Assembly (NCBI GenBank): GCA_934456315.1
Contig: CAKSHG010000011.1
Coordinates: 1 to 24,033, forward strand
DNA: 24,033 nt
DNA from: an uncultured Oscillospiraceae bacterium
GTDB taxonomy: Bacteria > Bacillota > Clostridia > Oscillospirales > Ruminococcaceae
Reading direction: 5' to 3'
Each line of letters begins with the position of its first letter. Within the stretch, counting starts at the first letter, position 1. Shown piece after piece: positions 2,614-13,702 of the stretch. The notes below the pieces were generated by a model. The model ran no database searches, was not told the origin of the DNA, and was given only the letters and a program-made list of their open reading frames with translations. The position numbers and the translations under genes are program-made.

Positions 2614-2642
2614 TTGAAATTCCGGCAATTATATAGTAAAAT
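2614..2642 (+). promoter_or_regulatory. Promoter of the purine operon
   Basis: TTGAAA (2614-2619) and TAAAAT (2637-2642) are separated by exactly 17 bases, a good sigma-A promoter, embedded in AT-rich DNA. The expected start of transcription is near 2649, leaving a leader of about 210 nt before purE. No PurR-box pair of the B. subtilis type was recognised by eye. Confidence 0.75.
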
Positions 2643-2714
2643 ATATGTATAGTTTATTTCGGCTTACAAACTGCGGTTATAAACTGGAAGTAATCTGTAA
2701 AGGGAGAGCAAATA

Positions 2715-2801
2715 ATGAGATGTCAGTTATCATTTCATACCTGCTGCGGCGGAGTTACGGTTTCTTTTTACAGAATAAGTGCAACCATAAGACAATTGTA
2801 A
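2715..2801 (+). CDS. 28-codon Cys-rich small ORF in the pur leader
   Basis: A short reading frame beginning ATG (2715) and ending TAA (2799-2801), inside the purE leader. An SD-like AGGGAG (2701-2706) lies eight bases ahead, well placed. The peptide contains the run FHTCCGGVTVSF, with tandem Cys and tandem Gly codons at 2742-2753. Its stop codon lies only five bases before the terminator stem (2807), so a terminating ribosome would cover the 5' arm. The SD itself is sequestered by the 12-bp helix 2695-2706/2762-2773. These features fit a leader peptide or a regulated small ORF, but short frames also occur by chance in structured RNA. Nothing homologous is recognised with certainty. Confidence 0.35.
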   Translation: MRCQLSFHTCCGGVTVSFYRISATIRQL

Positions 2802-2806
2802 CTTTT

Positions 2807-2839
2807 TAGCTGTATTCCGCATACAGCTATTTTTATTTT
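2807..2839 (+). terminator. Intrinsic terminator / attenuator before purE
   Basis: Perfect 9-bp stem TAGCTGTAT (2807-2815) with ATACAGCTA (2821-2829), loop TCCGC, followed by TTTTTATTTT (2830-2839). It sits between the pur promoter (2614-2642) and the purE start (2863), so it can only act on leader transcripts, as expected for attenuation. Confidence 0.75.
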
Positions 2840-2862
2840 GAAACAAAGGAAAGGAAGATATT

Positions 2863-3366
2863 ATGTCAGAGAAAAAAGTCGGCATAGTTATGGGCAGCGA
2901 CAGCGATTTCCCCGTTGTGCGCAAGGCCGCGGAGGCTCTCAAGGAGTTCGGTATCCCGTTCGAGATGAGAGTTCTTTCAGCTCACCGCTCCCCTAAGGAG
3001 GTCGCGGAGTTCGCGCAGAACGCCCGCCAGAACGGATTCGGAGTTATCATCGCGGCAGCTGGTATGGCCGCTCACCTTGCGGGAGCTATCGCAGGCAACA
3101 CTACCCTGCCTGTCATCGCTATCCCGGTAAAGGCTAAGGCACTCGAGGGCGTTGACGCGCTGCTTAGCTCCGTCATGATGCCCCCTGGAGTTCCCGTTGC
3201 TACGGTAGGTATCGACGCCGCCGCCAACGCCGGCTATCTTGCAGCCGAGATCCTTTCAGTGAGCGACGATTCCATCGCGGAGAAGCTGCTCGCTTTCAAG
3301 AAGAAGCAAAACGAGAAGAACCTCGCAGCTGACGCAAAAATGCAGGAAACTGCAAAGGAGATCTAA
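2863..3366 (+). CDS. purE: N5-carboxyaminoimidazole ribonucleotide mutase PurE (class I)
   Basis: This 167-aa enzyme rearranges N5-CAIR to CAIR in de novo purine synthesis. The family motifs are intact: GSDSD (residues 11-15), SAHRSP with catalytic H41 (39-44), and the glycine-rich [15 protein letters not shown] followed by LPVIAIPV. Length and motifs fit class I, the mutase that depends on PurK to make N5-CAIR. purK is not in this window. The ATG at 2863 follows a strong purine-rich ribosome site (AAGGAAAGGAAG). It is the first structural gene after the leader terminator and is followed 53 bases later by purC. The C-terminal tail is short and charged. Function is secure from motifs and operon context. 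Confidence 0.96.
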
Positions 3367-3374
3367 GTCTATCC

Positions 3375-3388
3375 CCTGCCCCGGCAGG
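3375..3388 (+). other. Intercistronic hairpin purE-purC
   Basis: CCTGC-CCCG-GCAGG can form a 5-bp GC-rich hairpin between purE and purC. It lacks a T-run, so it is not an intrinsic terminator. A role in mRNA stability or processing is possible. Confidence 0.35.
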
Positions 3389-3419
3389 AAATATACAGAA
3401 TATCAAAGGAGATATAACC

Positions 3420-4142
3420 ATGAGCTACACAAAGGCAGAACAGCTTTACGAAGGAAAGGCAAAGAAGGTTTTCGCTATCAAGGAGAACCCTGACTACGTT
3501 ATGGTATCCTACAAGGACGACGCTACCGCTTTCAACGGTCTGAAGAAGGGTCAGATCCACGGCAAGGGCGTTATCAACAACAAGATGACCAACTACATGT
3601 TCGGTCTTCTCGAGAAGGAGGGCATTCCTACCCACCTCGTTGAGGAGATAAACGACCGCGAAACCGTTGTTAAGAAGGTCGAGATCGTTCCGCTGGAAGT
3701 TATCGTAAGAAACGTAGCAGCCGGCAGCTTCTCCAAGAAGCTCGGCATCGAGGAGGGTACTCCCCTCAAGACCCCTACTCTGGAGTTCAGCTACAAGAAC
3801 GACGACCTCGGCGATCCGTTCATCAACAGCTACTATGCGCTCGGTCTGGGTCTTGCTACCCAGGAGGAGATCGACACCATCTCTAAGTACGCATTCGCAG
3901 TCAACAAGTTCATGCTCGGCTTCTTCAAGAAGCTCAACATCGACCTCATCGACTTCAAGATCGAGTTCGGACGCTACCACGGTCAGATAATCCTCGCTGA
4001 CGAGATCTCCCCGGATACCTGCCGCTTCTGGGATTCCACTACCCACGAAAAGCTCGACAAGGATCGTTTCCGCAGAGATATGGGCGGCGTAGAGGACGCT
4101 TACCAGGAGATCATGCACCGTATCTTCGGCGACAACAAGTAA
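3420..4142 (+). CDS. purC: Phosphoribosylaminoimidazole-succinocarboxamide (SAICAR) synthase PurC
   Basis: This 240-aa enzyme condenses CAIR with aspartate using ATP to make SAICAR. Recognisable family elements are YEGKAKKVF near the N-terminus (ATP loop), the conserved core [18 protein letters not shown] (about residues 91-108), FKIEFGR, and the SPDTCRFWD motif (about 199-207) near the active site. The size is normal for the bacterial short form. The ATG at 3420 follows AAAGGAGATATAACC, a strong ribosome site. Codon use is strongly biased to C- and G-ending codons, as expected for a highly expressed gene. It lies between purE and the PurF paralog with short gaps, so it is co-transcribed. Confidence 0.96.
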
Positions 4143-4175
4143 TCAATTCAGGGATCGGGATATTACGCTGACTAT

Positions 4176-4201
4176 CCGGAGCAGGAAAAGTCCTGCCCCG
4201 G
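4176..4201 (+). other. Intercistronic hairpin purC-PurF paralog
   Basis: CCGG-A-GCAGGA (4176-4186) pairs with TCCTGC-C-CCGG (4191-4201) around an AAAG loop: 10 bp with one A-C mismatch. Only three Ts follow, so termination is unlikely. It shares CCTGCCCCGG with the hairpin after purE. mRNA processing or stabilisation is inferred. Confidence 0.4.
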
Positions 4202-4239
4202 TTTAGTTAGTACAGACAGAAAAGGCGGTATAACTTTAT

Positions 4240-5664
4240 ATGGGCGGTTTTTTTGGAGCAGCTGCTGAACATAACTGTATCAGCGATGTATTTTTCGGCA
4301 CCGACTACCATTCTCACCTCGGCACACGCAGGGGCGGTATGACTGCATATTCCCCCGAAAAGGGATTCCAGCGGAGCATTCACAGCATTGAAAATTCACC
4401 CTTCCGCACCAAGTTCGAGCACGACGTCGAGGCAATGGAGGGCAACCTCTGCATAGGCAGCATCAGCGATACTGATCCGCAGCCTATCCTCCTCAAGTCA
4501 AGGCTCGGCACATACGCAGTCTGCAACATCGGTATCATCAACAACGACGAGGAACTCTGCAACGAGCTGCTTAGCAGCTCCAGCGCAAGCTTTGAGGCAA
4601 TGAGCAGCGGAAAGGTAAACTCCTCTACGCTTATCGGCGGACTTATCGCGCAGCGCGACAACATCGTCGACGGCATCAAATACGCGCAGGAAAAGATCAA
4701 CGGCACTATGTCCCTGCTGATTCTTACCGAGGACGGCATTATCGCTGCCCGCGACAAGAACGGCAGACTGCCTATTTTAATAGGTAGGCGCGACGACGGT
4801 TACTGCGTATCCTTTGAAAGCTTCGCTTTCCAGAAGCTCGGCTACGAGATCTACCGTGAAATGCTCCCCGGCGAGATCGTGAAGATAACCTCCAAGCGCG
4901 CAGAAGTGCTTAGCGAGGGTCACATCGACGACCTCAAGATCTGCACGTTCCTGTGGACCTACTACGGCTATCCCAACTCCGTATACGAGGGCGTGACCGT
5001 AGAAACCATGCGTACCAGAAACGGCGAGATAATGGCGGAGCACGATATCAACAGCGGCACACTTCCTGATGTCGACTTTATCTGCGGCGTTCCGGATTCC
5101 GGCGTTCCCCATGCCATCGGCTATGCCAACAGAAGCGGCATTCCGTTCGCACGTCCATTTATAAAGTACACCCCCACCTGGCCGCGCAGCTTTATGCCGC
5201 AGAGCCAGTCCATGAGAAACAAGGTTGCAAAGATGAAGCTTATCCCCGTTCACGAGCTTATCGAGGGGAAAAAGCTCCTGTTCGTAGACGACAGTATCGT
5301 CAGAGGCACGCAGCTCCGCGAAACTGTTGAGTTCCTGTACGCAAACGGCGCGAAGGAGGTCCACATGCGTTCCGCATGTCCTCCCATCATGTACGGCTGC
5401 AAGTATCTCAACTTTTCGCGCAGCACCTCCGAGCTTGACCTTATCGCCCGCCGTATAATCCACGAATTCGAGGGCGAGGAGGGTGTAAGATACATCAACG
5501 AATACAGCGACACCAACACCGAGCGTGGCAAGCGCCTTAGATCAGAGATCTGCAAGCGCCTCAAGCTCACATCGCTCGAATTCCAGTCGCTGGAGGGCAC
5601 TATAAAGGCTGTCGGACTTCCTGAATGCAGGCTTTGCAGCTACTGCTGGAACGGAAAGGAATGA
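4240..5664 (+). CDS. PurF paralog with degenerate glutaminase domain
   Basis: This 474-aa protein has the two-domain layout of amidophosphoribosyltransferase, but its glutaminase half looks catalytically dead. The N-terminal nucleophile cysteine is replaced by glycine (MGGFFG instead of ..CGVFG). The glutamine-binding and oxyanion motifs seen in the neighbouring PurF (GHVRYSTTG, AHNGNL, HSTSDTE) read IGSISDTDP, CNIGII and VNSSTLI. The phosphoribosyltransferase half is intact: VPDSG (284-288), the flexible-loop sequence MPQSQSMRNKV (319-329) and the PRPP loop LFVDDSIVRGTQ (347-358). C235, C380, C466 and C469 parallel the Fe-S cysteines of the PurF next door. The protein may use free ammonia, serve as a partner or regulator of PurF, or act on another substrate. 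The ATG at 4240 lacks a strong SD (GGCGG about 11 bases before). It ends 6 bases before purF. Confidence 0.85.
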   Translation: MGGFFGAAAEHNCISDVFFGTDYHSHLGTRRGGMTAYSPEKGFQRSIHSIENSPFRTKFEHDVEAMEGNLCIGSISDTDPQPILLKSRLGTYAVCNIGIINNDEELCNELLSSSSASFEAMSSGKVNSSTLIGGLIAQRDNIVDGIKYAQEKINGTMSLLILTEDGIIAARDKNGRLPILIGRRDDGYCVSFESFAFQKLGYEIYREMLPGEIVKITSKRAEVLSEGHIDDLKICTFLWTYYGYPNSVYEGVTVETMRTRNGEIMAEHDINSGTLPDVDFICGVPDSGVPHAIGYANRSGIPFARPFIKYTPTWPRSFMPQSQSMRNKVAKMKLIPVHELIEGKKLLFVDDSIVRGTQLRETVEFLYANGAKEVHMRSACPPIMYGCKYLNFSRSTSELDLIARRIIHEFEGEEGVRYINEYSDTNTERGKRLRSEICKRLKLTSLEFQSLEGTIKAVGLPECRLCSYCWNGKE

Positions 5665-5670
5665 TCCCCA

Positions 5671-7095
5671 ATGTCAGGTAATATCCACGAGGAATGCGGC
5701 GTTTTCGGTATTTACTCCAACACGCCGTCCGATGTGGCGCACTCCGCTTATTTCGGACTGTATGCGCTTCAGCACAGAGGTCAGGAAAGCTGCGGCATCG
5801 TTGTGAACGACCGCGGCGTGTTCAAGGCTCACAAGGGTCTTGGGCTTGTAAACGAAGTGTTCAACGAGCGCGTGCTTTCGGAATTCGGTCAGGGCAAGAT
5901 AGCAGTCGGTCATGTGCGCTACTCCACGACGGGTAACGTAAACACCGCGAACTGCCAGCCGATGACCGTTCGCCATGTCAAGGGCGCCCTCGCCATCGCG
6001 CACAACGGAAATCTCATAAACGCACTGGAATTAAGACGGCAGTACGAGCTGAAAGGCGCTATCTTCCACAGCACCAGTGATACTGAGGTCATTTCCTACG
6101 CAGTTACCGAGGCAAGGCTTGAAACCGGCTCCATTCAGGAGGCGGTCGAGAAAGCAATGTATAAAATCAAAGGCGCATACTCCCTTGTAGTCATGTCGCC
6201 GAAAAAGCTGATCGCGGCGCGCGACCCGCAGGGATTCCGCCCGCTGTGTATCGGTAAGCTCCCGGAAGACGCAGGCTATGTGTTCGCCTCCGAAAGCTGC
6301 GCCCTCGACAGTATCGGCGCGGAGTTCATCAGAGATGTTGAGCCCGGCGAGATCGTTGTCGTGGACGAGAATGGAATCCAGTCCATCAGAACGCACTGCG
6401 GTCAGAAAAGCTCGATGTGCGTTTTCGAGTTCATTTATTTCGCGCGTCCCGATTCGGTCATCGAGGGAGCAAGCGTACATCGTGCCAGACTCCGTGCCGG
6501 GCATTACCTTGCGCTTGAGCACCCCGTCCAGGCTGACGTGGTCATAGGCTGCCCGGACAGCGGTCTTGACGCCGCCCTCGGATTCGCCCAGCAGAGCGGT
6601 ATCCCCTACGGCGTCGGCTTCATCAAGAACCGCTACATAGGCAGAACGTTCATTCAGCCGACCCAGGGCATGCGCGAAAACTCCGTCAAAATAAAGCTCA
6701 ACGCCATTTCTGAAACGGTAAAGGGAAAGCGCGTGGTCCTCATCGACGACAGTATCGTCCGCGGAACTACCTCGGCAAAGGTAGTGAAGCTGCTCCGTCA
6801 TGCCGGGGCGACCGAGATCCACATGCGTATTTCTTCCCCGCCGTTCGTCAGCGAGTGCTTCTTCGGAACTGACATCGACAGTAAGGAAAACCTCATCGCG
6901 AACAAGCATTCCGTTGAGGAGATCGCGAAGATAATCGGCGTTGATTCCCTCGGATTCCTTAGTACGGACAGCGTTGTAAAGATCGCCGAGAATGCGGGCT
7001 GTGGATTCTGCACAGGCTGCTTTACCGGAAAATACCCCGTTGAAGTCCCCAAGGAGATCCCGAAAGACAAGTTTGAAATGAAGTTCGACGAGTAA
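5671..7095 (+). CDS. purF: Amidophosphoribosyltransferase PurF
   Basis: This 474-aa enzyme commits PRPP and glutamine to purine synthesis, forming phosphoribosylamine. An eight-residue propeptide precedes catalytic C9 (HEECGVFGIY). The other glutaminase motifs are complete: LQHRGQES (33-40), GHVRYSTTG (80-88), AHNGNL (110-115) and HSTSDTEV (133-140). The transferase domain has GCPDSG (293-298), TFIQPTQGMRENSVK (326-340) and the PRPP loop LIDDSIVRGTT (357-367). C250, C396, C447 and C450 match the B. subtilis-type Fe-S cluster and propeptide-processing class. The start at 5671 is set by the propeptide/Cys geometry and an AAAGGAATG ribosome region that overlaps the paralog's 3' end. It is followed after 73 bases by purM. 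Confidence 0.96.
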   Translation: MSGNIHEECGVFGIYSNTPSDVAHSAYFGLYALQHRGQESCGIVVNDRGVFKAHKGLGLVNEVFNERVLSEFGQGKIAVGHVRYSTTGNVNTANCQPMTVRHVKGALAIAHNGNLINALELRRQYELKGAIFHSTSDTEVISYAVTEARLETGSIQEAVEKAMYKIKGAYSLVVMSPKKLIAARDPQGFRPLCIGKLPEDAGYVFASESCALDSIGAEFIRDVEPGEIVVVDENGIQSIRTHCGQKSSMCVFEFIYFARPDSVIEGASVHRARLRAGHYLALEHPVQADVVIGCPDSGLDAALGFAQQSGIPYGVGFIKNRYIGRTFIQPTQGMRENSVKIKLNAISETVKGKRVVLIDDSIVRGTTSAKVVKLLRHAGATEIHMRISSPPFVSECFFGTDIDSKENLIANKHSVEEIAKIIGVDSLGFLSTDSVVKIAENAGCGFCTGCFTGKYPVEVPKEIPKDKFEMKFDE

Positions 7096-7120
7096 ATCTC
7101 GAACTAATATTATATGAAAT

Positions 7121-7152
7121 TAAGGTGCTCCGTATCCTGCGGCGCTTCCTTA
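7121..7152 (+). other. Intercistronic imperfect hairpin purF-purM
   Basis: TAAGG (7121-7125) pairs with CCTTA (7148-7152), and inner GC and CCG/CGG segments add five more pairs with two mismatches. No T-run follows, so it is probably not a terminator. It occupies most of the 73-base gap. Confidence 0.3.
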
Positions 7153-7168
7153 GAGAAAGGGCAGTAAA

Positions 7169-8203
7169 ATGAAAAGTTTCAGCGAAAGCTATAAGGCAGC
7201 AGGCGTAGACGTTACCGCCGGATACGAGTCAGTAAGACTGATGAAGGAGCATGTTGCCCGCACAAACACCGCCGGCTGCATTTCCGGAATAGGCGGTTTC
7301 GGCGGTCTGTTCATGCCTGACCTGACCGGAATGAAAGAACCCGTTCTGGTAAGCGGCACTGACGGCGTAGGAACCAAGCTCAAGCTCGCTATGCTCATGA
7401 ACAAGCACGACACTATCGGTATCGACGCAGTTGCAATGTGCGTTAACGACATCATCTGCTGCGGCGCAAAGCCCCTGTTCTTCCTGGACTACATCGCTAT
7501 CGGAAAGGTAGTTCCAGAGAAGGTAGCGGCTATCGTCAAGGGCGTGGCTGACGGCTGCGTAATGGCAGGCTGCGCACTGGTAGGCGGTGAAACCGCAGAG
7601 CACCCCGGCATGATGGCAGAGGACGAGTACGACATCGCGGGCTACAGCACCGGTATCGTCGACAAGTCCAGGATCCTGGATCCCTCCACCGTTAAGCCCG
7701 GCGACGCTATCGTTGGTATCGCCTCCAGCGGCGTGCACTCCAACGGCTTCTCCCTGGTAAGAAAGGTGTTCAACGTAAACGAGCAGAACCTCAAGACATT
7801 CTACCCCGAGCTTGGCACTTCCCTCGGCGACGCTCTCCTTGCTCCTACCAGAATATACGTTAAGCCCGTGCTTGATGTTATTTCCAAGATCAACGTCAAG
7901 TCCATCAGCCACATCACCGGCGGCGGATTCTACGAGAATATCCCGCGTGCGCTCCCGGACGGCGTTGCAGCTAAGATCAGCAAGAACAGCTACGAAGTTC
8001 CCGCTATCTTCAATCTCCTCCAGAAAACCGGAAACATCTCCGAGCACGATATGTACAACACCTTCAACATGGGTATCGGTATGATGCTGGTAGTCGACAA
8101 GGCTGACGCAGCAAAGGCTGTCGAGATACTCAAGGCAAACGGCGAGAATGCTTTCGTCATCGGCGAAACCGTTGCAAGCAACGAGGGCGTTATAATCGAA
8201 TAA
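7169..8203 (+). CDS. purM: Phosphoribosylformylglycinamidine cyclo-ligase PurM
   Basis: This 344-aa enzyme closes FGAM to aminoimidazole ribonucleotide with ATP. The PurM-family signatures are VSGTDGVGTKLKLA (around residues 61-74), the metal- and ATP-binding DAVAMCVNDIICCGAKPLFF (around 85-106), GGETAEHPGM, and the C-terminal HITGGGFYENIPRALP. Length is typical. The ATG at 7169 follows AGAAAGGGCAGTAAA, with the SD AAAGGG about eight bases upstream. Its TAA overlaps the ATG of the next gene (TAATG), so that unknown gene is translationally coupled to purM. Codon bias is strong, as in purC. Confidence 0.96.
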   Translation: MKSFSESYKAAGVDVTAGYESVRLMKEHVARTNTAGCISGIGGFGGLFMPDLTGMKEPVLVSGTDGVGTKLKLAMLMNKHDTIGIDAVAMCVNDIICCGAKPLFFLDYIAIGKVVPEKVAAIVKGVADGCVMAGCALVGGETAEHPGMMAEDEYDIAGYSTGIVDKSRILDPSTVKPGDAIVGIASSGVHSNGFSLVRKVFNVNEQNLKTFYPELGTSLGDALLAPTRIYVKPVLDVISKINVKSISHITGGGFYENIPRALPDGVAAKISKNSYEVPAIFNLLQKTGNISEHDMYNTFNMGIGMMLVVDKADAAKAVEILKANGENAFVIGETVASNEGVIIE

Positions 8204-8745
8204 TGTTCGGATTATTCAGGAAAAAGACCGCTGCTCCCTTCACTGGGGAGCAGTGCGTGGTCGATATCTCAAGGGACGGTCTGGTCATAAACGGCACAAA
8301 GCTCGACGTGCTTGTACACCTCGACGCCGCTGAAAAGCTGCTCGGAACGCCGCGCGGCAAGAAATACCGCACTTCTGCGGAGGACCGCGAGTTACTCGAG
8401 GAAACCCACGGCGAGGGAATGGTGTCGAACCGTGTGAACTACACCTGGGACGACCTCGGGATCTACTGCTACACAATGAACGGCAAGGTCATCAGCAGTT
8501 TCGGATTCATGTTCCACAACGAGATGGAGCTGAAGCACTCCCCCAGGAAAATGTTCAGCGGAACGCTGACGATAAACGGCGAACCCTGGCAGAAAACCGT
8601 CCTGAACGGAACAGACTGCGAGTTTTTCCGGGAGCTGGTGCTTGGCGGTTACACTGTCATCGCCGAATACACCGACCCCTTTTCCGGAGAAACGCCGGAC
8701 GAGGGCGGATACAATTGCGTTGAGATCTCCCTGACCGGAGAATAG
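8203..8745 (+). CDS. Unknown 180-aa protein coupled to purM
   Basis: I do not recognise a function. The protein begins MFGLFRKK, a basic hydrophobic N-terminus that is not a clear signal peptide, then becomes an acidic, mixed alpha/beta protein. Visible features are LDAAEKLLGTPRG (about residues 40-52), YTWDDLGIYCY (80-90) and VIAEYTDPFSGE (about 152-163). Its YxWDDLGI motif with a late Y-x-D-P segment resembles small uncharacterised bacterial proteins, possibly the DUF7738 type; this assignment is tentative. It starts at an ATG overlapping the purM stop and is followed 12 bases later by purN with its own GGAGG site. The position inside a purine operon suggests co-expression, not necessarily a purine role. 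Gene reality is well supported by length and coupling. Confidence 0.75.
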   Translation: MFGLFRKKTAAPFTGEQCVVDISRDGLVINGTKLDVLVHLDAAEKLLGTPRGKKYRTSAEDRELLEETHGEGMVSNRVNYTWDDLGIYCYTMNGKVISSFGFMFHNEMELKHSPRKMFSGTLTINGEPWQKTVLNGTDCEFFRELVLGGYTVIAEYTDPFSGETPDEGGYNCVEISLTGE

Positions 8746-8757
8746 CGGAGGTACATT

Positions 8758-9381
8758 ATGAAAAATATCGTTGTGCTGGTTTCCGGCGGCGGAACTAATC
8801 TTCAGGCGCTCATCGACGCAGAGAAGCGCGGCGAGATAAAGGGCGGAAAGATCACCTGCGTTATCGCCAGCAAGGCTGACGCCTACGCGCTGACCCGCGC
8901 AGCCGACAACGGGATAAAGACCCGTGTGCTGGTACGCAGGGATTTCCCGGACGTAAAAAGCTACAGCAAGGCAATGCGTGACGCACTTGTTGAGGAAAAT
9001 GCGGATCTGGTGGTATACGCCGGATTCATGACGATACTTGACGAGCAGGTGTGCGACGCATTCCCTAACAGAATGATAAATATCCACCCTGCACTGATCC
9101 CGAGCTTCTGCGGAAAGGGATTCTACGGGCTGCACGTTCACGAAGCCGCGCTTGCAAAGGGCGTAAAGGTTTCCGGCGCGACAGTGCATTTCGTAACGGC
9201 AGACTGCGACGCAGGTCCGATCATACTACAGAAAGCTGTTGAAGTAAAGAACGGCGATACCCCCGAGGTACTCCAGAAGCGTATCATGGAGGAAGCCGAA
9301 TGGAAGATACTTCCCCAGGCAGTTTCACTGTTCTGTGAGGACAGGATAATTGTTCACAACGGCGTCACCGAAATTCGATGA
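8758..9381 (+). CDS. purN: Phosphoribosylglycinamide formyltransferase PurN
   Basis: This 207-aa enzyme transfers a formyl group from 10-formyl-THF to GAR. Family motifs are VLVSGGGTNLQALI (residues 5-18, phosphate loop), INIHPALIPSF (about 104-114) containing the catalytic Asn-His pair, and SGATVHFVTADCDAGPII (about 140-157) with the catalytic Asp. Formate-dependent PurT is not seen in the window, so GAR formylation here is THF-dependent. The ATG at 8758 follows GCGGAGGTACATT, a strong site. A short ATGA overlap at its end opens a 31-codon frame that runs into the next gene. Confidence 0.95.
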   Translation: MKNIVVLVSGGGTNLQALIDAEKRGEIKGGKITCVIASKADAYALTRAADNGIKTRVLVRRDFPDVKSYSKAMRDALVEENADLVVYAGFMTILDEQVCDAFPNRMINIHPALIPSFCGKGFYGLHVHEAALAKGVKVSGATVHFVTADCDAGPIILQKAVEVKNGDTPEVLQKRIMEEAEWKILPQAVSLFCEDRIIVHNGVTEIR

Positions 9382-9473
9382 GCAGGATCGTTATCACTGG
9401 AGAAAGGCTCACGCCTCCTGTCCGCGGCTGGCAGGATGTATACGTCGGGGAGGGTAGATATGAACGAGGATAA
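9378..9473 (+). CDS. Candidate 31-codon coupling ORF between purN and methyltransferase
   Basis: An ATG overlaps the purN stop (ATGA) and opens a frame through the 78-base gap, ending at TAA 9471-9473, inside the start of the methyltransferase. It begins MSRIVITGERLTPP. There is no SD of its own. Its main plausibility is that it bridges two genes by translational coupling, and it could equally be chance. Confidence 0.2.
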   Translation: MSRIVITGERLTPPVRGWQDVYVGEGRYERG

Positions 9474-10206
9474 ATTCTCTGGTAAAGCGGCGATTTATGC
9501 GAAATACCGCCCCTCCTACCCCACCGCAGTTATCGACAGGCTGTATGAACTGACACATGCAGGCAATGTCGCTGACATCGGCGCGGGAACCGGCAAGTTC
9601 ACCGAAAAGCTGCTGCTAAAACCCTGGAACGTTACCGCTGTTGAGCCTAATACCGACATGTGCCGCGAGCTGCTGAAATGTGTAGGCGGCAGAGCCGAGA
9701 TAGTGATGGCGTCGGCGGAAAGCACCGGGCTTCCGGAGCATTCGTTCGGACTTGTCACGACCGCGCAGGCGTTCCATTGGTTCGATGCGGAGAAATTCCG
9801 CGGGGAATGCAAACGGCTGCTCAAGCCCGACGGACGGCTGGCGATAGTTTTCAACAGCCGAATGAAGGGCGATATAACCCAAAAGCGCGATGAGATTTAC
9901 ATGAAATACTGCCCCGCTTTTTCAGAGCGCTCCGGACATGTCGGGAAACGCTCCGATGAGGAGGGCGACAAATATCTGCGTAATGAGTACTTCTCGTCGG
10001 TGGACGTTTTCAAGATGGAAACCCCCGTTGTTATGACGAGGGAACACTTCCTCGGCGACGCGCTCTCGAGGTCATACGCTCCGAAGGAGGGCGACGAAAA
10101 CTACAAGGCGTTCGTTGCTGAACTGCTTTCCCTTTTCGACAGGACGCATAAATACGGCAAGGTCGCCGTAAGCTACACGACAACATGCTACACAGGAAAA
10201 TTCTGA
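9460..10206 (+). CDS. SAM-dependent class I methyltransferase
   Basis: A class I methyltransferase of about 248 aa. From the chosen start, motif I is NVADIGAGTGKFTEKLL (about residues 36-52), the acidic end of strand 2 is VTAVEPN, and the post-motif region LPEHSFGLVTTAQAFHWFD resembles the ubiquinone/menaquinone and small-molecule methyltransferase group. The C-terminal third has no motif that fixes the substrate. I chose ATG 9460 because GGGGAGGG (9447-9454) lies five bases ahead and the family start MNEDKFSGKAAIYAKYRPSYP-like sequence begins there. An in-frame ATG at 9436 would add eight residues but has GGCAGG directly against it. It is located between purN and purO, so it is co-expressed with purine synthesis. 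The functional link is unknown. Confidence 0.8.
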   Translation: MNEDKFSGKAAIYAKYRPSYPTAVIDRLYELTHAGNVADIGAGTGKFTEKLLLKPWNVTAVEPNTDMCRELLKCVGGRAEIVMASAESTGLPEHSFGLVTTAQAFHWFDAEKFRGECKRLLKPDGRLAIVFNSRMKGDITQKRDEIYMKYCPAFSERSGHVGKRSDEEGDKYLRNEYFSSVDVFKMETPVVMTREHFLGDALSRSYAPKEGDENYKAFVAELLSLFDRTHKYGKVAVSYTTTCYTGKF

Positions 10207-10219
10207 AAGGATACACGAT

Positions 10220-10954
10220 ATGAACTACATTGAGCTTGACAAGGAACTGAATTCCCTTGCCTACCACGGCAGAGGAATCATCATCGGCAAGTCCCCGGAC
10301 GGCAAGAAAGCAGTCACCGCTTACTTCATCATGGGCAGAAGCGAGAACAGCCGCAACCGCGTTTTCGTTGAGGACGGCGAGGGTATCCGCACCCAGGCGT
10401 TCGACCCCTCCAAGATGGTAGACCCGCACCTCATCATTTACGCTCCGGTGCGCGTTCTCGGCAACAAGACCATCGTCACCAACGGCGACCAGACCGACAC
10501 CATCTACGAGCTGATGGACAAGCAGATGACATTCGAGCAGTCCCTGCGCACCCGCGAATTCGAGGACGACAAGCCCAACTACACACCGCGTATCTCCGGT
10601 ATTATCCACCTCGAGAACGGCGCTATGAACTACGCCATGTCTATCCTGAAATCCGCAGAGGGCGACGGCAGCTCCTGCCGCAGATACACCTACGCCTACA
10701 GCAATCCCCTGGCCGGCAGGGGCAGCTTTATCCACACCTACGCTGGCGACGAGGTGGAGCAGGACGGCGTTCGCAGACTTCCCAGCTTTGAGGGCGAGCC
10801 GAAGAATGTTATAATTCCCGATATGGACATCGACAAGCTGACAGACTTCCTGTGGACAAACCTCAATAAGGACAACAAGGTTTCCCTGTTCGTAAGATAC
10901 ATCGACCTCGAAACCGGCAGATATGAAAGCAGAATAGTTAATAAGAACGTATAA
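10220..10954 (+). CDS. purO: IMP cyclohydrolase, PurO-like
   Basis: A 244-aa protein of the PurO-type IMP cyclohydrolase family, which closes FAICAR to IMP. Family-like features are LAYHGRGIIIGKSPDGKKAV near the N-terminus, YFIMGRSENSRNRVF (about residues 35-49), YAPVRVLGNKTIVTNGDQT and the NYTPRISG segment (about 125-132). The identification is strengthened by the next gene, which encodes only the AICAR transformylase half of PurH, so a separate cyclohydrolase is needed. The ATG at 10220 has AAAGGA eight bases before it. The 13-base gap from the methyltransferase and 12-base gap to the transformylase place it firmly in the operon. The protein replaces the usual N-terminal cyclohydrolase domain of bifunctional PurH. 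Confidence 0.9.
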   Translation: MNYIELDKELNSLAYHGRGIIIGKSPDGKKAVTAYFIMGRSENSRNRVFVEDGEGIRTQAFDPSKMVDPHLIIYAPVRVLGNKTIVTNGDQTDTIYELMDKQMTFEQSLRTREFEDDKPNYTPRISGIIHLENGAMNYAMSILKSAEGDGSSCRRYTYAYSNPLAGRGSFIHTYAGDEVEQDGVRRLPSFEGEPKNVIIPDMDIDKLTDFLWTNLNKDNKVSLFVRYIDLETGRYESRIVNKNV

Positions 10955-10966
10955 AAAGGAGATACT

Positions 10967-12145
10967 ATGAAGGAATTCGAATTAAAATACGGCTGCAACC
11001 CCAACCAGAAGCCCGCAAGAATTTTCATGGAAAACGGCGCAGATCTTCCTATCGAGGTGCTGAACGGCCGTCCCGGCTACATCAACTTCCTGGACGCATT
11101 CAACGGCTGGCAGCTCGTCAAGGAGCTCAAGGCTGCGACTGGCTACCCCGCTGCCACCAGCTTCAAGCATGTTTCCCCGGCTGGCGCCGCTATCGGTCTG
11201 CCGCTCACTGAAACCCTCGCTAAAATTTACTGGGTAGACGACCTCGGCGAGCTTTCCCCGCTCGCATGCGCTTACGCAAGAGCAAGAGGCGCTGACAGAA
11301 TGAGCAGCTACGGCGACTTCATCGCGCTGTCCGACGTCTGCGACGTTTCCACTGCAAGGATAATCCACCGCGAGGTTTCCGACGGCGTTATCGCTCCCGG
11401 CTACGAGCCGGAAGCACTTGAGATACTCAAGAGCAAGAAGAAGGGCAACTACAACATAATCAAGATCGACCCGGACTACGTTCCCGAGCAGATCGAGCGC
11501 AAGCAGGTCTACGGCATTACCTTCGAGCAGGGACGCAACGAGCTGGTCATCAACGACGAGCTGTTTGCGAACATTCCCACCGAGGCTAAGGACCTCCCGG
11601 AGAGCGCAAAGCACGACCTCGCGATCGCGCTTATCACGCTGAAATACACACAGTCCAACTCCGTTGCATACGCATGCGGAGGTCAGGCGATCGGTATCGG
11701 CGCTGGTCAGCAGTCCCGTATCCACTGCACCCGCCTTGCCGGAACAAAGGCTGACAACTGGTATCTCCGTCAGTCCCCGCAGGTAATGGGGCTCCAGTTC
11801 GTTGACGGTATTCGCCGCGCTGACCGCGACAACACTATCGACCTGTACATCGGCGACGACTATATGGACGTTCTTGCCGAGGGCGAATGGCAGAAGTTCT
11901 TCAAGGTAAAGCCCGCTGTGTTCACCCGTGAGGAAAAGCGCGCATGGCTCGATACCATGAAGGGCGTTTCCCTTGGCTCTGACGCATTCTTCCCGTTCGG
12001 CGACAACATCGAGAGAGCGCACAAGAGCGGCGTTCAGTACATTGCGCAGCCCGGCGGCTCTATCCGCGACGATAACGTTATCGAGGTGTGCAACAAGTAC
12101 GGCATTACAATGGCATTCACAGGCATTCGTCTGTTCCATCACTGA
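10967..12145 (+). CDS. purH: Stand-alone AICAR transformylase (PurH transformylase half)
   Basis: This 392-aa protein converts AICAR to FAICAR using 10-formyl-THF. It corresponds to the AICARFT domain alone, without the N-terminal IMP cyclohydrolase domain of the usual ~510-aa PurH. Key motifs are LKYGCNPNQKPA (residues 6-17), the catalytic Lys-His in FKHVSPAGAAIG (66-77, K67-H68), GIGAGQQSRIHCTRLAG and the C-terminal SDAFFPFGDNIERAHKSGVQ. The end TGIRLFHH matches the family C-terminus, so the gene is complete. ATG 10967 has AAAAGGAGATACT in front of it. The missing activity is supplied by the adjacent purO-like gene. The symbol purH is used for homology; purV is used by some for this single-domain form. 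Confidence 0.93.
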   Translation: MKEFELKYGCNPNQKPARIFMENGADLPIEVLNGRPGYINFLDAFNGWQLVKELKAATGYPAATSFKHVSPAGAAIGLPLTETLAKIYWVDDLGELSPLACAYARARGADRMSSYGDFIALSDVCDVSTARIIHREVSDGVIAPGYEPEALEILKSKKKGNYNIIKIDPDYVPEQIERKQVYGITFEQGRNELVINDELFANIPTEAKDLPESAKHDLAIALITLKYTQSNSVAYACGGQAIGIGAGQQSRIHCTRLAGTKADNWYLRQSPQVMGLQFVDGIRRADRDNTIDLYIGDDYMDVLAEGEWQKFFKVKPAVFTREEKRAWLDTMKGVSLGSDAFFPFGDNIERAHKSGVQYIAQPGGSIRDDNVIEVCNKYGITMAFTGIRLFHH

Positions 12146-12160
12146 TAAACGGAGGTAATC

Positions 12161-13702
12161 ATGTCCCACGAGTTAGTTCTGGTTCTCGATTTCGGCGGTC
12201 AGTACAACCAGCTTATCGCCCGCCGCGTCAGAGAACATAAAATTTACTGCGAGGTAAAGTCATACAAGACCCCTATCGAGGAAATACGCGCGATGAATCC
12301 CAAGGGTATCATCTTCACGGGCGGTCCGAACAGCGTTTACCTTGAGAATTCCCCGAGAATGTCCAAGGAGATATTCGAGCTGGGCGTTCCGGTTCTCGGT
12401 ATCTGCTACGGCGTTCAGTTCATGGCGTACTCCCTCGGAGGCGAGATAGGTACCGCAGTTGACAGCTCCCTGTCCGAGTTCGGCAGGACTGAAACCGATG
12501 TAGACACATCTTCCGCGCTGTTCAAGGGTATCGACAAGACGACCATTACCTGGATGAGCCACAACGATTATATCAAGAAGCTCCCCGAGGGATTCGAGGT
12601 CTGCGGTCACACCGCAAAGTGCCCCTACGCTGCTATCCAGAACGTTGAAAAGAAGTTCTACGGCGTGCAGTTCCACCCGGAGGTCAACCACACCGAGCGC
12701 GGCTTTGACATGCTGGGCAACTTCCTGTACAACGTCTGCGAATGCCGCGGCGACTGGACAATGGAGAGCTACGCTGAAACCGCGATCAGAAATATCCGCG
12801 AGAAGGTCGGCGACGGCAAGGCGCTGCTGGCTCTTTCCGGCGGCGTTGACAGCTCCGTTGCGTGCAAGCTTCTTGCAAAGGCTATCGGAAGCCAGCTGAC
12901 CTGCATTTTCGTTGACCACGGACTGATGAGAAAGAACGAGGGCGACGAAGTAGAGGCTGCGTTTGCGGACAGCGGTGTTAACTTCGTTCGCGTAAACGCT
13001 GGCGAGAGGTTCCTCGGCAAGCTTGCCGGAGTTACCGAGCCGGAAGCAAAGCGTAAGATAATCGGCGAGGAATTTATCCGCGTATTCGAGGAAGAAGCAA
13101 AGAAGATCGGTAAGGTCGACTACCTTGTTCAGGGTACTATTTATCCTGACGTCATCGAATCCGGTCTTGGCGACGCGGCAGTCATCAAGAGCCACCACAA
13201 CGTTGGCGGACTGCCTGACTACGTTGATTTCAAGGAGATAATCGAGCCGCTCCGCCTGCTGTTCAAGGACGAGGTCCGCGCTCTGGGCACAACGCTTGGT
13301 CTGGACGAAAAGCTCGTTTGGCGTCAGCCGTTCCCGGGTCCTGGACTTGCTATAAGGATCATCGGCGACATCACCCCTGAAAAGGTAGCTATTCTCCAGG
13401 ACGCAGACGCTATTTTCCGCGAGGAGATCGCCAATGCTGGTCTTGACAGGAGCATCAACCAGTACTTCGCAGTGCTGACCAACATGCGCTCCGTCGGCGT
13501 AATGGGCGACGGAAGGACCTACGATTATACTCTGGCGCTCCGCGGTGTGTCTACAAGTGACTTCATGACCGCTGATTTCTCCCGTATCCCCTACGATGTG
13601 CTGGAAAAGGTATCCGTCCGCATCGTTAACGAGGTCAAAAATATTAACCGTATCGTTTATGACATCACTTCCAAGCCGCCGGCTACCATAGAATGGGAAT
13701 AA
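12161..13702 (+). CDS. guaA: GMP synthase (glutamine-hydrolysing) GuaA
   Basis: This 513-aa enzyme aminates XMP to GMP. The N-terminal class I glutamine amidotransferase domain has FTGGPNSVY (residues 52-60), nucleophile C82 in LGICYGVQ and FHPEVNH for the His-Glu pair. The ATP pyrophosphatase domain begins with the PP-loop [10 protein letters not shown] (about 225-234). The dimerisation domain carries KPPATIEWE at the extreme C-terminus, the normal end. ATG 12161 follows ACGGAGGTAATC, an excellent site. It is the last gene of the operon and is followed within 20 bases by a strong terminator. Its presence biases the operon output toward GMP; guaB (IMP dehydrogenase) is not in the window. Confidence 0.97.

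Follow-up and report, generated by a model that had tools for sequence, protein, structure and literature searches.

Control of purine synthesis is so far known to be exerted by repressors and riboswitches. A purE leader in which no riboswitch core is recognised raises the question of how the operon behind it is switched. Such a leader lies in the window, by which we mean the whole stretch of 24,033 nucleotides from an uncultured Oscillospiraceae bacterium that was analysed. Its purine operon (2863-13702) starts with purE, which is preceded by a leader of 220 nt, and continues with purC, a PurF-like gene, purF, purM, a DUF7738 gene, purN, a methyltransferase gene, the genes for IMP cyclohydrolase and a stand-alone AICAR transformylase, and guaA. 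A preliminary description had read the leader as an attenuator and had suggested that it might be a new RNA sensor or a peptide-dependent attenuator.

We compared the leader with two sets of relatives. For the genus, 43 genomes were selected by taxonomy, 38 of which have a PurE match, and the resulting 35 leaders comprise the window, its six close relatives (L001-L006, obtained by a PurE scan of public genomes), 24 leaders from the genus scan and four more regions. For the family outside the genus, 297 genomes were drawn and 260 gave a PurE match; we used 69 of the best of these, a sample that is biased towards the PurE of the window. Setting aside three with a ZTP-like core left 66, of which 53 combine a sufficient length of leader with a terminator that exceeds the threshold; removal of near-duplicates reduced these to 45.

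Results

Leader anatomy and search for known purine regulators

The promoter, the long helix with its two enclosed hairpins and the terminator that had been described upstream of purE are all present (Table 1). The promoter matches 10 of 12 consensus positions, and the 901-nt region scanned holds four promoter-like sites versus 1.3 ± 1.2 in shuffles. The predicted fold of the leader is better than 200 of 200 dinucleotide shuffles (z -3.9), and in its minimum-free-energy form the helix described as 12 bp (2695-2706/2762-2773), here called P1, is extended to 2694-2707/2761-2774 and encloses hairpins with stems at 2715-2722/2731-2738 and 2739-2744/2749-2755. The terminator pattern alone is expected about once per shuffled region of that size; in the genus, a terminator over threshold stands in 34 of the 35 leaders, and the window and the six leaders closest to it share TAGCTGTAT...ATACAGCTA without change.

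Table 1. Features of the purE leader, in coordinates of the window
Feature	Position	Strand	Basis
Sigma-70-type promoter of the purine operon, TTGAAA-17-TAAAAT	2614-2642	+	Consensus scan; same element in aligned relatives
5' hairpin of the leader	2650-2686	+	Fold; not conserved in alignment
P1 5' strand, core CTGTA 2695-2699; covers the uORF Shine-Dalgarno	2694-2707	+	Fold; core covariation in genus
Shine-Dalgarno AGGGAG of the uORF	2701-2706	+	Sequence; SD-like sequence precedes the uORF in relatives
uORF, 28 codons and stop TAA 2799-2801	2715-2801	+	Translation; frame, stop-placement and shuffle tests
Two hairpins within the P1 loop, 2715-2738 and 2739-2755	2715-2755	+	Fold
P1 3' strand, core TACAG 2769-2773	2761-2774	+	Fold; covariation
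Conserved motif TACAGAATAAGTGCA, read as a putative elemental pause	2769-2783	+	Motif in 32/35 genus leaders; pause-consensus enrichment in family
Intrinsic terminator, putative attenuator; stem 2807-2829 (9 bp) and T-run	2807-2839	+	Pattern scan; stem invariant in seven leaders
purE	2863-3366	+	Pfam PF00731; operon genes

A search of the window with the covariance models of Rfam 15, known riboswitch classes included, gave no match at gathering score and, between 2500 and 2900, none better than E 1.4. The view that the leader has no recognised riboswitch core thus came through the scan that had been named as a means of refuting it, and we rule out a known riboswitch for want of an Rfam match. 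Control by PurR was likewise discarded, because its PuR_N domain (PF09182) was found in 0 of 43 genus genomes, a set to which the window's own genome does not belong; the control search was positive in three of 14 genomes, B. subtilis and L. lactis included. The ZTP riboswitch (RF01750) is absent from the window and was found in 0 of the 43 genus genomes, under strict filters that lose weak matches and with only part of the candidates scored, while Rfam places it in the purE leaders L023, L031 and L034, three of 20 loci scanned. A viral_contigs scan returned no relative. When a pattern for the element was sought at other operons, backward-pattern controls gave counts of the same order in many genomes, the pattern being loose.

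A short open reading frame ends at the terminator

The preliminary description had overlooked a short upstream open reading frame (uORF) whose stop codon ends 5 nt upstream of the terminator stem, and whose Shine-Dalgarno sequence lies within the 5' strand of P1 while its 3' part forms the 3' strand. We scored a leader as carrying such a uORF if it had a terminator over threshold and a start codon with a Shine-Dalgarno sequence, a length of 15-50 codons and a stop lying -25 to +12 nt from the stem. This automatic criterion selects 31 of the 35 purE leaders of the genus, in which the uORF stops next to or inside the terminator, at positions from -14 to +12 relative to the stem; 30 of these uORFs start with ATG. 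The leaders that fall outside it do so for different reasons: the Shine-Dalgarno type of L006 is absent from the pattern list, the terminator of L132 scores 16 against a threshold of 18, the uORF of L115 ends within the terminator 3' arm, and L136 is without such a uORF. L132 and L136 are natural variants, the former with extra sequence in the terminator loop and the latter with extra sequence in place of the lost motif and uORF.

The arrangement extends to the family, where 23 of the 45 non-redundant leaders have an ATG uORF that stops at the terminator (shuffles 0.8 ± 0.8, at most 3 in 100 runs) and 29 have one if any start codon is allowed (shuffles 2.6 ± 1.6, at most 7), leaving 22 and 16 leaders, respectively, without one by the criterion; shuffling lessens the effect of relatedness on these comparisons without removing it. 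By crude gene calling, none of 22 terminator-bearing leaders of other genes, drawn from 201 genes with an upstream gap of at least 180 nt in 800 kb of six genomes, has a uORF that stops at the terminator. Of 68 non-genus purE leaders from more distant relatives, a terminator is present in 28, an abutting uORF in 10 and a ZTP core sequence in 12, and none of these 12 has an abutting uORF.

The reading frame is also kept relative to a conserved sequence near the uORF end. The distance from the start codon to this motif varies between 39 and 54 nt, yet it is divisible by three in 30 of 32 motif-bearing genus leaders (L001 being counted by an in-frame start). As a control, the distance from the motif to purE falls into each of the three phases about equally often (9, 9 and 10 leaders, 28 in all, with L135, L137, L138 and L139 left out). 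In L116 and L122 the frames are shifted, and the stops still lie 5 and 7 nt upstream of the stem.

Conservation of the nucleotide motif and of the stop position

As far as sequence comparison can tell, two things are conserved, the nucleotide motif TA[CT][AG]G.A[TC]..[GT]TGCA and the position at which the uORF stops. Among 23 pairs of related uORFs the in-frame dN/dS is 0.82, against 1.03 and 0.53 in the shifted frames, which makes for a noisy frame test given that one shifted frame is also low; variability is highest at the second codon position. The peptide is therefore apparently not conserved, and translation of the uORF seems to matter rather than its amino acid sequence.

These results bear on an arrest-peptide attenuator of the TnaC or Erm kind, in which the nascent peptide would sense a purine-pathway metabolite and stall the ribosome at its C-terminus. 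The uORF C-termini in the genus look alike at first sight (Y-G/R-I-x-A), some ending exactly there (YYYGISA), and a ribosome stalled on the stop codon would sit over the terminator. However, we gave up a conserved peptide after the frame and dN/dS comparisons. Within the motif, codon 4 is constant at its third base, variable at its first two, and invariably followed by GCA; in L116 and L122 the motif nucleotides persist out of frame; and in family leaders the motif, read by eye, stands in other frames. We regard stalling by the peptide as very improbable. From the earlier suggestion of a peptide-dependent attenuator we thus retain the uORF and its conserved stop position but not the dependence on the peptide, and because the place of the stop is conserved and the amino acid sequence is not, dependence on translation is the better reading.

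Helix P1 and the proposed antiterminator pairing

The motif contains the 3' core of P1, and comparison across the genus indicates that this core covaries with its partner, so that the search for covariation among relatives did not refute the helix. In counts that include near-duplicates, TACAG is matched by CTGTA in five of six leaders, TATGG (10 leaders) by CCATA in five, CTATA in three and CCGTA in one, and TACGG (16 leaders) by CCGTA in five and CTGTA in one; CCATA also occurs in three TACGG leaders, where it does not match. Among 25 non-redundant genus leaders, 11 carry the Watson-Crick complement of their own core, versus 0.60 ± 0.76 expected. Together with the negative Rfam search and the conserved terminator, the covarying core supports reading the leader as an attenuator that lacks a known riboswitch core. 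The 5' strand of P1 covers the Shine-Dalgarno sequence in the window's clade but lies upstream of it in most of the genus, and no common helix of this kind was found at the family pause sites (see below) outside the genus.

The same helix could serve a new riboswitch or RNA-binding-protein switch in which a ligand closes or opens P1 and the uORF is incidental, and its covariation in the genus, the strong predicted fold of the leader and the conservation of the motif at the nucleotide level would all suit such a switch. Yet the sequence enclosed by P1 is variable among relatives and holds no conserved core, no Rfam model matches, and P1 is not general in the family, whereas the placement of the uORF stop is. 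A ligand-operated P1 therefore strikes us as quite improbable, and the earlier proposal of a new RNA sensor was not borne out, given that the P1 loop is variable and that, beyond the genus, we detected no common helix at the motif and no conserved antiterminator.

The preliminary description had further proposed that TACAG (2769-2773) pairs alternatively with CTGTA (2811-2815) in the terminator. This pairing is possible, but as an antiterminator it is only moderately special: in 24 genus leaders the TAYRG segment scores better, on average, than 77% of the remaining segments of the leader, and in the window better than 62%. On such a pairing would depend a trp-type attenuator, in which a ribosome stalled at particular uORF codons frees TACAG from P1, TACAG and the terminator 5' arm form the antiterminator, and the signal is the charging of one tRNA. 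All the pairing options that this needs (1:2, 2:3 and 3:4) exist in the window, and antiterminator duplexes in the genus have a small advantage over shuffled sequences (mean z -0.65, se 0.21, n=27). Leaders of the family show no such signal (mean z -0.04 ± 0.13, n=45), and we set aside a trp-type antiterminator, the signal for which is weak in the genus and not seen in the family. Codon content also speaks against it, as the window uORF has no run of regulatory codons and no codon family dominates in 29 family uORFs, where the residues K, F, C, G and A are raised, Gln is not and Asp is low. Moreover, since the stop abuts the terminator, a ribosome that finishes the uORF would block the terminator rather than the antiterminator, and we consider trp-type control improbable. 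As a separate observation, a second segment (e.g. ATTACGGCTT, ATCGGCTC), present about 50 nt upstream of the terminator in the purE leaders L001-L003, L119 and L130, complements the terminator 5' arm better than TAYRG in several genus leaders.

A putative RNA polymerase pause site

G-11, T-3 and G-2 belong to the consensus of the bacterial elemental pause. This consensus also includes G-10, Y-1 and G+1, according to excerpts of one account (PMC12288461). The genus motif, which is missing from L115, L129 and L136, reads G-11 G-10 N6 T-3 G-2 Y-1 R+1 and so has the shape of an elemental pause. In the window the putative positions are G-10 at 2773, C-1 at 2782 and A+1 at 2783, and position -11 is A, where most of the genus has G. 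The preferred +1 base is A, as against G in the consensus; A follows the putative pause in 32 of 32 genus motifs, by definition of the motif, and makes up 52% of the next 18 nt in the genus and 28% in the family.

The pause consensus was spotted in these sequences before it was tested on them. In the 45 family leaders, GGN6TGYR often stands in the 3' part of the uORF, with 19 leaders carrying it versus 5.4 ± 1.9 in shuffles (at most 11); on the other strand the excess is small (5 of 45 versus 2.4 ± 1.5), and 8.8% of composition-matched background windows of family genomes contain the sequence. When the gap is varied from 0 to 12, the excess peaks at the consensus spacing of 6 (19 leaders versus 5.2 ± 2.1), with gaps of 4, 5 and 7 raised too, and the commonest tetramers after GGN6 are TGTA (11 leaders) and TGCA (7). 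The enrichment of the consensus makes the motif a candidate elemental pause site. A hairpin-stabilised pause was discarded: P1 is strongest when its 3' end lies 5-9 nt from the putative RNA end, and known pause hairpins lie 10-13 nt from it in the excerpted account (PMC12288461). Because of this misfit, and because the family pause sites are not preceded by a common hairpin, we claim only an elemental pause.

The pause is also what separates our reading from a plainer attenuator in which uORF and terminator simply report translation or growth, for example through the initiation rate or the supply of GTP or formyl-Met, and GGN6TGYR serves another purpose or is incidental to P1. The uORF with its stop placement is the most widespread feature of these leaders, and the full pause consensus is absent from 26 of the 45 in the family, both of which would fit such coupling without a pause; however, the motif has the spacing and the end bases of the pause consensus, and its enrichment is far greater on the sense strand. 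We rate this simpler alternative as rather unlikely, though deserving of serious attention.

Two copies of the pause consensus stand 31-33 nt apart in the family leaders L098, L106, L152, L158, L162 and L171. Among the 13 motif pairs in the 45 leaders, six have this spacing, which was picked after inspection and includes the similar leaders L106 and L162; random placement gave 0.53, and none of 2000 trials reached six. The spacing corresponds to about one ribosome footprint or three turns of DNA.

Discussion

Taken as a whole, we think it likely that the leader is a translation-coupled transcription attenuator similar to that of pyrBI, in which a pause of RNA polymerase holds a helix open while the ribosome loads. 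RNA polymerase coming from the purE promoter would transcribe the uORF and then reach a terminator whose stem starts almost at the uORF stop. If a ribosome follows closely, it would cover the stop codon and the terminator 5' arm, the hairpin would be blocked and the operon transcribed; if no ribosome arrives in time, the terminator would fold. There is precedent for the effect of such an arrangement in E. coli, where shifting a stop codon towards a terminator, from a distance of 28 bp to one of 5 bp, lowered termination from ~90% to <10%, and removal of translation restored termination, as reported in excerpts of that study (PMC4824070). The window leader shares its anatomy with the construct whose stop lies 5 bp before the terminator (PMC4824070).

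We infer a second step from the segment TAYRG-N-AY-NNN-TGCA, which carries the P1 3' core together with the pause consensus. A polymerase paused at TGC|A would keep the P1 core inside, so that P1 could not yet close over the ribosome-binding region of the uORF. With an RNA end at 2782, polymerase would hide ~2771-2782, judging by the footprints excerpted from PMC4824070, and since this is most of the P1 core, the helix could not close and the Shine-Dalgarno sequence would stay free. The open helix would give the ribosome time to load, and the pause could in this way gate ribosome loading. Gating fits the window's clade best, where P1 covers the Shine-Dalgarno sequence itself, because P1 was not seen at the family pause sites and its 5' strand lies upstream of the Shine-Dalgarno sequence in most of the genus. 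The uORF, the position of its stop, the motif, the covariation of P1 in the genus and the terminator are read directly from sequence, and the model deduces from them that the uORF is translated, that polymerase pauses at the motif and that the steps follow in this order.

As to the signal, we propose that the purine-nucleotide pool, which we judge the most likely candidate, acts on escape from the pause, where the next base is A. In pyrBI the signal is UTP-sensitive pausing, and by analogy low purine NTP would prolong the pause, allow the ribosome to load and turn the operon on. Carried to its full extent, this idea makes the leader a purine counterpart of pyrBI with RNA polymerase as the purine sensor: a programmed pause before A (or G) would hold the helix open over the uORF ribosome-binding region and last when purine NTP is low, the ribosome would load and run to the stop at the terminator, the operon would be on, and this device would stand in for both PurR and riboswitches across a large clostridial group. 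We put this extended proposal forward tentatively, as one that may well prove wrong. A switch made of ribosome and polymerase would work without a dedicated sensor molecule and would account for the control of a costly pathway in Clostridia without a detected PurR or ZTP riboswitch.

The comparison with known systems is instructive. The pyrBI leader ORF, pyrL, spans its attenuator. Excerpts on pyrBI of Escherichia coli describe tight coupling over this ORF as preventing the terminator from forming (PMC5021804). Both leaders have an ORF that runs up to the attenuator of a nucleotide-synthesis operon, and two traits of pyrBI-type control recur here: a ribosome on the leader ORF could cover the attenuator in the window, as in 31 of the 35 leaders of the genus and 23 of the 45 of the family, and the peptide sequence appears unimportant, as judged by evolutionary evidence. 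In contrast to pyrBI, the operon here is for purines rather than pyrimidines, the uORF ends at the stem instead of spanning the attenuator, the genus has the additional helix P1, and sensing of NTP is our hypothesis. In Bacillus subtilis, the vmlR leader has a short uORF, a terminator and programmed pausing together with antiterminator and anti-antiterminator structures, and the yxjB leader has an ORF with programmed RNA polymerase pausing, as excerpts of these studies state (PMC9226507; PMC6851288). They share with the purE leader the short uORF, the terminator and the polymerase pause, putative in our case, but they answer ribosome-stalling antibiotics through a NusG-dependent pause, whereas the purE leader has a GGN6TGYR-type motif and precedes a biosynthetic operon. 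The mgtCBR leader of Salmonella, with the ORF mgtM, ties transcription of the coding region to cytoplasmic ATP, according to its excerpted description (PMC3641672). Here the likeness that we consider is one of mechanism, a leader ORF with a link to ATP or, hypothetically in our case, to purine NTP; unlike in our model, which requires low purine NTP, a rise in ATP promotes transcription there.

The purE leader or promoter is also where the purine riboswitch, the ZTP riboswitch and PurR exert control, and excerpts of a purine review place the B. subtilis guanine riboswitch and the ZTP riboswitch at the purE leader (PMC10912719). Our leader differs from the riboswitch-controlled ones in matching no riboswitch model and from PurR systems in that PuR_N was found in 0 of 43 genus genomes. 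Leader ORFs with programmed pausing and an ATP-linked leader ORF are thus known already, and we found no earlier case in purine synthesis: the excerpts of bacterial RNA motif surveys and the purine review that we searched mention no uORF attenuator for purE (PMC11109978, PMC8632094, PMC6429828, PMC10912719), in a literature search that covered main texts and few subscription papers. The many natural leaders with a uORF stop at the terminator and a consensus pause upstream make transcription-translation coupling in Clostridia directly testable.

Finally, the operon itself has some unusual members. Next to the normal purF, 4240-5664 encodes a PurF-like protein with weak Pfam matches that starts MGGFFG, where PurF has CGVFG; going by the sequence rules for PurF, it probably lacks the catalytic cysteine. 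The stretch 8203-8745, between purM and purN, encodes a DUF7738 protein (PF24880). The last two steps to IMP are assigned to separate genes (10220-12145), one for an IMP cyclohydrolase (PF07826), which we take to be of the archaeal type, and one for an AICARFT-family protein that matches profile positions 76-311.
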